A stretch of DNA of 44,629 nt, taken from IMG/VR virus record IMGVR_UViG_3300013131_000004, positions 1 to 44,629 of that record; one strand, given 5' to 3'. The position numbers were made by a program, and so were the translations under genes. Source of the DNA: a virus. The notes below the pieces were generated by a model. That model was not told the DNA's origin. It did no database searches and was given only the letters and a program-made list of their open reading frames with translations. Each line of letters begins with the position of its first letter. Positions within the stretch are counted from its first letter, which is position 1. This document shows positions 4,532-7,923 of the stretch, piece by piece.

Positions 4532-4813
4532 ATGGACCCGAACAAGCCGCTCAACCTACTCACCATCGATGAAGCCGCTGCCGAGCTGCGCGTCGACAAG
4601 CGCACGCTGTACCGCTTCATGAACGAGGGCACGCTGCAGGCCAGGCGGCTGCGGTCCGCCGACAAGGTCTTGATCGACCGAGCCGACCTCATCGCCATGC
4701 TCGAAGCCTGGTCGCCCAAGGAAAAGGGCTTCCGGCTGAGCAAGGGGAAAGCTGCCAAGGGCGACACCGAGGAATTGCGCCAACCGCAGCAGCAGCCCGA
4801 GGTCCGCCGATGA
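4532..4813 (+). CDS. Small helix-turn-helix DNA-binding protein (excisionase/HTH_17-like)
   Basis: 93 aa. The first two thirds match the MerR/excisionase-type HTH: LLTIDEAAAELRVDKRTLYR followed by FMNEGTLQARRL and VLIDRADLIAMLE, the usual pattern of helix-turn-helix plus wing. The C-terminus is charged and Q/P-rich. A good ribosome site (GAGGAA) precedes the ATG. It is the first gene of the early operon and overlaps the replication gene by ATGA. Because no integrase is found, a role as transcription or origin-binding factor is more likely than excision; inference only. Confidence 0.85.
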   Translation: MDPNKPLNLLTIDEAAAELRVDKRTLYRFMNEGTLQARRLRSADKVLIDRADLIAMLEAWSPKEKGFRLSKGKAAKGDTEELRQPQQQPEVRR

Positions 4814-7800
4814 GTACCCTGCCAAACGCCAAACGCTACGCCGCCATGGGCCTTTCGGTCATACCGCTGCGTCCGCGTCCCGAACCCGACCCCAAGGGCG
4901 AGGCCAAGCGCCCCGCGCTGCCGGCGTGGAAGGAATACCAGCAGCGTCGCGCGACCGAGGCGGAACTGGAGGCGTGGTGGCATCGGTGGCCAGAGGCCGG
5001 CGTGGCAATCGTCACCGGTGCCGTCTCGGGCGTGGTCGGCATCGACCTGGACAACGCCGAGGCCGTAGCCTGGGCCCATGAGACGCTGCCGCCGACACCG
5101 ATGGTCTGCCGCTCGGGCCGCGGCGAGCACTGGTACTACAAGCACCCTGGCATCCCCGTGGCCAACGGCGTGGGCGTCGTCGCCGGCCGCAAGATCGACA
5201 TCCGCGGCGACGGCGGATACCTGGTCGCCCCGCCGTCGGTGCATCCGACCGGTGCCCTGTATGTAGAGGTTGGCGACTGGGAAAAAGCCCTGCAATCCCT
5301 ACCTGCCTTCCCATCCAGCGATCTCAGAAAAAGCGGTAATAGTTCTGAGGCGTTGATAATAGGTATTATGTCGGATTCTGCGCCCGAACCGCCGGCACGT
5401 CAAGAACTTTCCAAGCGGATCTTGGCGCCGGTGCCGGATAAAGCGGACGTGCCGATTATCAGTCGTCTCTACCAGCCGCGGCCCGGCGGCTTCAAAATCG
5501 CCGTTGGAGATCGCGAGATCCAGCCGTCCGGCGGGCCGCAAGTTGACCATAATCGACCGGCCCCGTCCGAGCGGGCCCGGGCCTACCTGGCGGCCAAGCC
5601 CGGCGCGGGGGAGGGCGAGCGCAACCGTGCGCTGCACGCCGCCGCCTGCGTCGTCTGCCATGACTTCGACGTGGACGTGGACACGGCGATCGGCCTCTTG
5701 TCCGAATGGAACGCTAAGAACCGACCGCCCATTGATCACGATGAATTGGTCCGCACCACCAAGTCCGCGGCTAAGACCGCGCGCGGGCCCCGTGGCGCCA
5801 AGCTAGCGGTACCTGCCGGCGCCCGCATGACTTCGACCGGCACGGTCCTGTCGAGCGTCCAGCGCCTCGAAGGCCAGGCCGAGATCCCGACCATCCGCGT
5901 CAACATGGCGGAGCTACCACGGATGGTGGACGAGGCGGCCGAGGCGCTCAAGGGCGAGCCCGAGCTGTACCAGCGCGGCAACTTCTTGGTGCAGGTCCGC
6001 CAGGACGGCGGCAAGAAGGTCAAGCACCTGCTGCGGCCGCCGACCGAGCCGGTCATCATCGGCATCCCGATCCCGCGGCTGCGCGAGCTGCTGTCCCGCT
6101 CGGCCCGCTGGGTCAAGATGCAAAAGGACGACGACGGCTGGCGGGAAGTCCCGACCGGCGTACCCGAGATCGTCGCTCAGGTCCTGGCCGCTCGGCCGCT
6201 GTGGCCGTTTCGCCCGCTCGAAGGCATCGTTGAAGCGCCGACCATCCGCCTGGACGGCACTGTGCTGAGTGCGCCTGGCTACGACGACCTGACGGGCCTG
6301 CTGTACCTATCCGACGGTACCGAGTACCAGATCGCCGACACGCCCGGACTGCAAGAAGCTCAGGACGCGTTGCGCTTTGTGGCGACCGAGCTATTCAGCG
6401 ACTTCCCCTTTCCGGCCGAGTACCACCGCTCGGCGGCTATGGCCGCGCTGCTGACGGTGGTGCTGCGCCCCGCCATTGCCGGGCCCGTGCCGCTCTTCCT
6501 GCTGTCGGCCTCGACGCCTGGCGCCGGCAAGGGTTTGATCGCCCACGTGTGCGCCGCGGTGGCGACGGGCCGCCCCGCAACGCTTCTGACTCCGTGCGAG
6601 CGCGAGGATTCCTTCAAGACTGCCGTGACTTCGGCTGCGCTGTCGGGCTCGCGCGCCATCCTGTACGACGAGGTCAGCTCGATTGGTGGTCCCACGCTGC
6701 AGTCGGCGCTGACGGTCTGGACCTGGTCAGACCGCGCCTACCACACCCAGACCATCGTCACGACGCCCGTGCGCTGGGTCTGGTTCGCCGCCGGCCAGAA
6801 CCCGGCCATCGCCGGCGACATGCACCGCCGTACGATCCAGATCCGTCTGGAGCCGCAGATCGAGTCGCCCGAAGACCGCACCGACTTCCGCAACCCCGAC
6901 CTGGAGCGCTGGGCGACCGAGCACCGCGGCGAGATCGTCTCGGCGATCCTGACGGCGGCCAAAGCCTTCTTCTTGGCCGGCCGGCCGCAGGCGGCTCTTC
7001 CGCCCTATGGCAGCTACTACGCCTGGTCGAACCTCATCCGCCAGCTGCTGGTCTGGACCGGCTGGCCGGACCCCAACCTCTGCCGCGAAGAGGTCAAGGC
7101 CGCCGCCGCCGAGCAGCGCGGCCCCATCGAGGCGATGCTGGAAGGCTGGCGATCGGTGTTTGGCGACAAGGCCCTGCGCCTCGCCGACGCCGTCGCCGAC
7201 ATCCGCCAGGCCAAGAATGAGGCGCACTGCCACGACCTGTGGTCAGCGCTGCTGGAGCTGGCCCCGACCAAGGGCCGCGACGATATCGACATGGACCGTT
7301 TGGGCAAGCTGTTCCGGCGCTTGAAGGCCCGTATCTTTGGAGGATTCCAGCTACTTTCCGATACCAAGGACCGCAACAAGGTCGCCTTGTGGCGCATCCG
7401 CATCGTCACGATTGCGGGGGATGCGGGGGATTGCGGGGGATCATCGGTGTTACTTGGACCTGATCAGTCTTCTTCAGAAAACTACGTCCAAGAGGACTAC
7501 AAACATCCCCCGCTATCCCCCGCATCCCCCGCACTCCCACTTGGTAGCCCCAAGCCCGAGCCGCCGTGGCCCGACGATGAAGTCGTTGATGCGCTTGCGA
7601 TGTGGCTACGCGACGGGCATCCGCAGGCGGCTGAGATGTGGCAGGCCCTGGGCAAGACCTGGCCGAGCGACGTGGCCTGGGCGGCGGCGCCGGCGGACGG
7701 TCGGCTGTTCCGCTCGGTGGCGGAGCAGATGGCGCGGCGCGACCACGACGACGCGGTGTGGCTGTGCAAGCAGGCCGCTAGGGTCACCATGACGGGGCTG

Positions 7801-7923
7801 GTGATGCCCGAAGACATCCCGACCGGAAACTGGCGCTCGTGGGTTTGGCACGCACAATCGGCGGACACCCTCAACCCGTGGCTGGCGTGGATGCGCCAGA
7901 ACGTAAGGAGTCTGCCGTGCTGA
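4810..7923 (+). CDS. Prim-Pol primase / AAA-type ATPase replication protein, very large
   Basis: 1037 aa, overlapping the previous gene by 4 nt. The N-terminus (about 1-165) looks like a bifunctional primase-polymerase domain: GLSVIPLRP, WPEAGVAIVTG, GVVGIDLDN with the DxD-like acids, then KIDIRGDGGYLVAPPSVHPTG. A PriCT-like helical segment follows around 270-325 (ERNRALHAAACVVCHDF). The centre holds an ATPase: Walker A STPGAGKG at 568-575 and Walker B ILYDEVSS near 616. The last 130 residues are a distinct tryptophan-rich tail after a low-complexity linker. It probably initiates replication by priming and unwinding, with host polymerase elongating. Unusually, the gene contains two structured DNA patches (5323-5372 and 7413-7533), described separately. 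Residues about 170-200 are encoded by an AT-rich stretch unlike the rest. Confidence 0.9.
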   Translation: MSTLPNAKRYAAMGLSVIPLRPRPEPDPKGEAKRPALPAWKEYQQRRATEAELEAWWHRWPEAGVAIVTGAVSGVVGIDLDNAEAVAWAHETLPPTPMVCRSGRGEHWYYKHPGIPVANGVGVVAGRKIDIRGDGGYLVAPPSVHPTGALYVEVGDWEKALQSLPAFPSSDLRKSGNSSEALIIGIMSDSAPEPPARQELSKRILAPVPDKADVPIISRLYQPRPGGFKIAVGDREIQPSGGPQVDHNRPAPSERARAYLAAKPGAGEGERNRALHAAACVVCHDFDVDVDTAIGLLSEWNAKNRPPIDHDELVRTTKSAAKTARGPRGAKLAVPAGARMTSTGTVLSSVQRLEGQAEIPTIRVNMAELPRMVDEAAEALKGEPELYQRGNFLVQVRQDGGKKVKHLLRPPTEPVIIGIPIPRLRELLSRSARWVKMQKDDDGWREVPTGVPEIVAQVLAARPLWPFRPLEGIVEAPTIRLDGTVLSAPGYDDLTGLLYLSDGTEYQIADTPGLQEAQDALRFVATELFSDFPFPAEYHRSAAMAALLTVVLRPAIAGPVPLFLLSASTPGAGKGLIAHVCAAVATGRPATLLTPCEREDSFKTAVTSAALSGSRAILYDEVSSIGGPTLQSALTVWTWSDRAYHTQTIVTTPVRWVWFAAGQNPAIAGDMHRRTIQIRLEPQIESPEDRTDFRNPDLERWATEHRGEIVSAILTAAKAFFLAGRPQAALPPYGSYYAWSNLIRQLLVWTGWPDPNLCREEVKAAAAEQRGPIEAMLEGWRSVFGDKALRLADAVADIRQAKNEAHCHDLWSALLELAPTKGRDDIDMDRLGKLFRRLKARIFGGFQLLSDTKDRNKVALWRIRIVTIAGDAGDCGGSSVLLGPDQSSSENYVQEDYKHPPLSPASPALPLGSPKPEPPWPDDEVVDALAMWLRDGHPQAAEMWQALGKTWPSDVAWAAAPADGRLFRSVAEQMARRDHDDAVWLCKQAARVTMTGLVMPEDIPTGNWRSWVWHAQSADTLNPWLAWMRQNVRSLPC
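5323..5372. repeat. AT-rich pair of palindromes inside the replication gene
   Basis: CTCAGAA (5323-5329) pairs with TTCTGAG (5343-5349). Immediately after lies a perfect ATAATA-GG-TATTAT (5356-5369). The patch is strikingly AT-rich within a GC-rich gene and overlaps the first copy of the operator-like motif. It could be a DNA-unwinding element, an operator, or a small insertion; the frame is preserved. Confidence 0.7.
5351..5372 (-). promoter_or_regulatory. Operator-like motif, copy A
   Basis: On the minus strand this reads GACATAATACCTATTATCA then ACG. It matches copy B at 22401 in 19 of its first 20 positions. It lies inside the replication gene. Confidence 0.5.
5453..5470 (+). promoter_or_regulatory. 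Operator-like motif, copy F
   Basis: CGATTATCAGTCGTCTCT matches copy C (23391-23412, minus) at 16 of 18 positions. It is about 100 bp from copy A and in opposite orientation. Confidence 0.45.
7413..7533. repeat. Inverted iteron array, candidate replication origin
   Basis: The left arm 7413-7441 holds three direct GCGGGGGAT units; the right arm 7505-7533 holds three ATCCCCCGC units. The 29-nt arms are complementary except at one position. The 63-nt interval contains a second inverted repeat, CTTGGAC (7453-7459) and GTCCAAG (7486-7492), around a less GC-rich centre. The array sits in the part of the replication gene that encodes a low-complexity linker, much as lambda ori lies inside gene O. 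Origin function is inference. Confidence 0.7.

Follow-up and report, generated by a model that had tools for sequence, protein, structure and literature searches.

Facing iterons inside a Prim-Pol/SF3 helicase gene as a probable replication origin of a phage

For most uncultured phages and prophages, it is not known where DNA replication starts. We have analysed the virus record IMGVR_UViG_3300013131_000004 over its whole length (44,629 nt, hereafter the window), which carries portal, terminase, head protease and tail genes and which holds an inverted array of short repeats inside a predicted replication gene. The question raised by this locus is whether the array could be the origin of the phage and, if so, which protein would recognise it.

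Anatomy of the array and its coding context

The features of the locus are the following:

4532..4813, plus strand: gene of a small HTH_17/excisionase-like protein, just upstream of the initiator gene
4810..7923, plus strand: ORF of 1037 aa, predicted initiator with Prim-Pol, PriCT_1, SF3/D5-like helicase, winged helix, disordered linker and C-terminal extension
4828..5298, plus strand: Prim-Pol domain, residues 7-163 (PF09250, E 7e-29)
5908..7119, plus strand: SF3/D5-like helicase region, residues ~367-770 (VIA-align Z 13-14 to vaccinia D5, mpox E5 and SaPI5 PriRep1)
7165..7404, plus strand: winged-helix region, residues ~786-865, predicted iteron reader (AlphaFold pLDDT ~73-89; homologous alignments stop there)
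7413..7441, plus strand: left arm, three GCGGGGGAT iterons (7414, 7423 and 7433; spacing 9 and 10)
7442..7504, no strand: AT-rich spacer of 63 nt, 44% GC, candidate melting region
7453..7459, no strand: inner repeat CTTGGAC
7486..7492, no strand: inner repeat GTCCAAG
7505..7533, minus strand: right arm, three ATCCCCCGC iterons (7505, 7515 and 7524; spacing 10 and 9)

The word GCGGGGGAT occurs six times in the window when both strands are counted, always within the array (0.64 copies expected; at least six in 0 of 100 shuffles). Three copies face three others with mirror-symmetric spacing (9, 10 in the left arm and 10, 9 in the right one), and the 29-nt arms are complementary at 28 of 29 positions around the 63-nt gap, which contains the inner CTTGGAC/GTCCAAG pair. 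The first-pass annotation had described this anatomy correctly in all its coordinates and counts. No second site with an arm complementarity of at least 24/29 was found in the window (spacers of 20-139 nt), nor any further copy of the array, which is single in the record. The spacer has a GC content of 44% versus 67% for the genome, and 0.45% of the record's 63-nt windows are equally AT-rich. The cumulative GC skew, which had been proposed as a check, agreed in part: a local minimum at 7,565, the lowest in the first 26 kb and in the middle of a plus-strand gene block, lies near the array and weakly backs an origin there, whereas the global minimum of the record (44,404) lies away from it.

The array had also been assigned to a weakly constrained linker of a primase/ATPase, and the predicted structure agreed with this view. 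The confident AlphaFold model stops at about residue 865, past the winged-helix-like region, and residues 869-929 have a pLDDT below 50. The array codes for residues 869-908, the start of this disordered, low-complexity linker, right where the confident winged-helix model stops. The ATPase region of the protein matches phrog_29234, and its predicted structure aligned with the SaPI5 primase-helicase 7ola (Z 13.8) and with 7pds (Z 13.3).

The GC3 value is 0.51 across the array and is back to 0.85 downstream in the same frame; judging by this recovery, the part of the ORF downstream of the array appears to be truly coding. With the six iterons in reading frames 0, 0, 1, 1, 2 and 2, the repeat unit is kept as DNA and not as peptide. 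The three frames, together with the dip and recovery of GC3, reveal selection on DNA inside genuine coding sequence. An array within translated sequence and read in three frames is unusual; the gene would accommodate the origin at this place because the disordered linker encoded after the winged helix tolerates almost any sequence.

Recurrence of facing arrays behind homologous winged helices

We have searched for relatives of this locus. None close to the 4810-7923 gene was found in viral_contigs, the phage matches being all distant, and about 36% identity was the most that any relative found in the searches reached. BLAST of the array segment against phages gave no match, and scanning genomes for the exact array returned one genome only, because the iteron word differs by lineage. 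The array search led to L011, L022 and L030. In each of them a homologous ATPase gene precedes the array, which follows its last codons immediately in L011 and L030 and after about 0.4 kb in L022/L031. Protein searches yielded further homologues, mostly with 25-38% identity to the query used. The survey set comprised 60 homologous loci from phages, bacterial genomes and plasmids, totalling 419 kb.

The homologous alignments stop at the winged helix, and then comes the array. Facing tandem arrays recur after the winged helices of the homologues, each with its own word, for example GGCATCAG in L050, CCGGAGAT in L056, AGTGGCCC in L061, CGGAGACT in L065, GGTGACGAT in L068, GGAGACGTC in L076, GGTAGGGAT in L086, AGTGGGTTT in L092, and GTTGGGGAT and GGTGGGGAT in L040-L044. 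The first-pass annotation had suggested comparing homologous genes to see if the iterons persist while the linker drifts; among these distant homologues the outcome was the predicted one for the architecture, which persists, but the word itself does not. The place, the 8-11-nt spacing and the AT-rich gap are conserved across loci, the word and the spacer sequence being lineage-specific. When L043 was compared with its near relatives L040/L042/L044, the word 3' of the ATPase gene was seen to change from GTTGGGGAT to GGTGGGGAT in all array copies together.

In most relatives the stop codon of the gene precedes the array; a handful of loci, among them the window, L034, L050 and L057, have an ORF that continues across the array. 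The small plasmids pA32H2 (6.5 kb) and pMNOD06 (12.6 kb) have the array at the 3' end of the homologue, which is their sole evident replication gene. In a deltaproteobacterial MAG (L030:2389-2823), several tandem duplicates of the whole array of ~117 nt directly follow the ATPase gene, in a stretch that is partly masked.

The position of the arrays was compared with chance using a strict detector on the whole 419 kb, a match requiring a pair of copies with a spacing of 8-11 nt and, facing it, a second pair spaced in the same range. The detector returned 30 facing arrays; for 28 of them the start is located from -60 to +450 nt relative to the end of the winged helix, an interval that covers 7% of the sequence; one of the two others starts at +471. 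The unbiased figure is 24 of 56 loci, with the window, L011, L031 and L033 set aside as their arrays were known beforehand or first found through the array itself; some of the survey loci are mutually related (L040-L045; L087/L098), so that the events are partly non-independent. A looser score was reached at 22 of 59 gene ends; control windows taken from within these genes reached it in 1 of 288 cases, and shuffles in 0 of 1180. About half of the homologues failed the strict test, some of these having imperfect arrays by eye. The scan found no array at the loci of phiCbK, a Ruegeria phage and TPWB-08; for the first two, which are large phages, this would fit a different use of the protein.

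In 30 of 32 loci the spacer has a lower GC content than the gene (mean 49% versus 64%; Wilcoxon p 9e-9), as expected for a putative melting region. The spacers of L011, L040, L041, L043, L050, L057, L081 and L092 share AATGGCAG/ACTGTCA-like words despite their different iterons. Such words are possibly a common inner element; the conserved spacer words AATGGCA and ACTGTCA are enriched only mildly.

Related words were also found in other layouts. Tandem GCGGGGGAT or GCGGGTGAT pairs lacking a facing arm were mostly unrelated repeats with no homologue nearby, whereas a homologue adjoins the facing-arm pairs of L114/L121 and L127 and the one-sided pairs of L115/L118. Facing GCGGGGGAT triplets with a spacer of ~60 nt are located upstream of a terminase gene in the phage loci L003:2055-2170 and L004:41-157, and a Prim-Pol or phrog_29234 gene was looked for in these two records and not detected. 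The L004 array is at a contig end and that of L003 about 2 kb from one; therefore, a neighbouring gene is possibly missing from the records. Six loci (L007, L012, L014, L018, L028 and L029) have another inverted layout, with GCGGGGGAT and GAGGGGGAT words beside GATGTCGTCAGGAT-like sequence, apparently a different repeated element. Dense TTGGGTATGAGCTCAA-type repeats on both strands were seen in a viral contig (L008:7542-7774).

Recognition of the iterons and alternative readings

We have investigated which part of the protein the iteron word follows, using 37 loci with words assigned by eye. Word similarity correlated with winged-helix similarity given the ATPase (partial Mantel r 0.19, p 0.006, a test that does not fully model phylogeny), and its correlation with ATPase similarity given the winged helix was not significant (r 0.07, p 0.14). 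The six loci with GCGGGnGAT words are scattered in the ATPase comparison (similarity of 0.295 among themselves versus 0.283 to the rest), and their winged helices have a similarity of 0.225 among themselves versus 0.139 to the rest. This supports, but does not prove, that the iteron word tracks the winged helix better than the ATPase. The wing motif R[ND][GK] is present in 6 of 6 GCGGGnGAT loci and, among the new loci, in L114 and L115 but not in L127; as a word-related feature it is a lead only. The likely binder of the window array is the winged helix of the 4810-7923 protein and not the 4532 HTH_17/excisionase-like protein, which the first-pass annotation had named as a second candidate and for which no evidence of a link to the array was found.

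The array is very probably the start of phage DNA copying, because distant relatives share its layout and the array of the plasmid pWTY27 belongs to an origin. Its anatomy, the conserved place and architecture in distant homologues, the diversification of the word with the winged helix and the AT-rich spacer were all observed here. We thus hold with high confidence that the array is the phage's replication origin, with the iterons recognised by its own Prim-Pol/SF3 helicase protein as the predicted binder. The earlier proposal of a candidate origin recognised by the product of its own gene is upheld, as a prediction, by position, architecture, word/winged-helix coupling and the pWTY27 homologue. 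For binding, melting and priming in the window phage, we infer the following course. In both arms, the triplet of 9-nt iterons would be bound by the winged helices of a 4810-7923 protein multimer, and two helicase rings would be loaded face to face and would melt the AT-rich spacer of 63 nt. The Prim-Pol domain would then prime, and the forks would leave both ways, making replication bidirectional.

The origin could instead act as an extruded cruciform or stem-loop read by its shape, as proposed for pRN1 and pWTY27, a possibility that we consider real but rather unlikely. The complementarity of the arms and their mirror spacing (9, 10 / 10, 9), both found in the window and again in L011, are compatible with it. 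Replication of pRN1 needs an intact stem and the loop (PMC4234260), and the authors of the pWTY27 study propose a folded-back hairpin (PMC3583192). However, two facing hexamers would give such symmetry too, and the arms are made of tandem copies. In addition, the two arms are unequal in spacing or copy number in L056 and L065, those of L030 have uncompensated mismatches, and word identity tracks the winged helix. The unequal arms would favour readout as separate iterons over a cruciform.

Iterons commonly act in control as well as in initiation, and the array is within the gene that it would regulate if it were an operator or copy-control (handcuffing) site for the initiator, with melting occurring elsewhere. 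Such a function is nevertheless improbable, given that the array is 2.6 kb downstream of the gene start and at the 3' end of the gene in relatives. Moreover, its facing triplets and AT-rich gap make up a complete origin anatomy, and the corresponding pWTY27 region is required for replication (PMC3583192). We give very little credence to the insertion of a short, REP/BIME-like mobile palindrome into a tolerant linker: the same word is found at an unrelated place in L003/L004 and the L030 array is in several tandem copies, but 28 of the 30 arrays share one position with respect to homologous genes, every lineage has a word of its own and a spacer unrelated to the others, and the window record has one array copy. 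Least credible of all is a function in RNA, as a terminator or attenuator hairpin, or in the protein, as a repeat within a flexible linker, since the very stable predicted RNA fold of the array (folding energy z = -8.4) and the low complexity of the linker are set against the lack of a T-run after 7533, an ORF that goes on with normal GC3, an array past the stop codon in most relatives, and iterons in three frames with no conserved peptide repeat.

With the array taken as an origin whose iterons are read by the winged helix, we lean slightly towards a broader view. The genes of a widespread family of mobile-element initiators would each have, within or next to their 3' end, an evolving origin of their own, with word and winged helix diversifying together, so that specificity would move as one cassette predictable from the protein sequence. 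Many Prim-Pol phage proteins have odd low-complexity linkers (AGDAGD..., ETSETS..., GNLGNL...); on this view they would be iterons read as protein, and their repetitiveness would come from DNA sites that are translated only incidentally. As a rule, facing 9-nt iterons around an AT-rich gap just after a Prim-Pol/SF3 winged helix mark a candidate origin in a large share of such elements, and dozens of natural iteron/winged-helix pairs are on offer for recognition-code work.

Comparison with known replication systems

The first-pass annotation had likened the locus to lambda-like phages, a comparison that we have abandoned. The lambda O gene does contain its own iterons, but these are direct and not facing triplets around a gap, and O is not a helicase-primase, needing P and the host DnaB. 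To our knowledge, O is not homologous to the window protein. No O-family match was found in the 4810-7923 protein, its gene coding for a Prim-Pol/SF3 helicase instead. The relatives in mechanism are the self-loading SF3 helicase-primases with a rep-adjacent origin, namely those of pWTY27, SaPI and pRN1.

In the Streptomyces plasmid pWTY27, replication is bidirectional and depends on repA and repB together with a neighbouring 300-bp stretch of GTGGGAAC/TTCCCAC repeats (PMC3583192). RepA matched residues 445-863 of the window protein (BLASTP, 28% over 425 aa, E 3e-43), and the pWTY27 array, which lies within the published minimal replicon (PMC3583192), was recovered by the same strict detector scan. 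RepA gave a specific gel shift and a footprint on a 105-bp inverted repeat, leaving the loop open (PMC3583192). The need of the array in replication and its footprinting by RepA were thus shown by others in this homologue; for the phage they are predicted. Both systems have the RepA-homologous ATPase/winged-helix half, facing iterons (GTGGGAAC in pWTY27) after the winged-helix coding sequence and an AT-rich gap. The plasmid pWTY27 differs in having primase and helicase as two proteins, the array outside coding sequence, and another word in more copies.

The initiators of SaPI and SCCmec (cch2) bind, through their C-terminal domain, iterons directly downstream of the gene (PMC7581432). The window protein shares with the SaPI-like ones the Prim-Pol, the SF3/D5-type helicase and, in the predicted model, the C-terminal winged-helix region; SaPI5 PriRep1 is among its best structural matches, although sequence similarity is not clear. 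The window array stands to the winged helix as the SaPI origin does, but whereas the latter is directly downstream of the gene, the array consists of strict facing triplets inside the ORF, with coding resuming after it.

In the Sulfolobus plasmid pRN1, an inverted structure of ~100 bp, with a 21-nt stem and a 58-nt loop, is found just 3' of the ORF904 gene (PMC4234260). This structure is needed for replication and is movable, and its stem has to be intact and its loop present (PMC4234260). ORF904 and the window protein both have Prim-Pol, SF3 helicase and C-terminal winged helix, and the pRN1 dimensions compare with 29-nt arms and a 63-nt loop in the window. The origin of this archaeal plasmid is outside the gene and was described as a stem-loop without iterons, whereas the window has iterons within the gene. 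Downstream of position 5030 of pRN1 (L080), each arm of the stem-loop has TGTCCA twice with a 9-nt spacing; this hints that the pRN1 origin may also consist of iterons. The phage BPP-1, cited as a phage analogue of pRN1, gave no iteron array in the same scan. The array rule links the origins of pWTY27, SaPI and pRN1.
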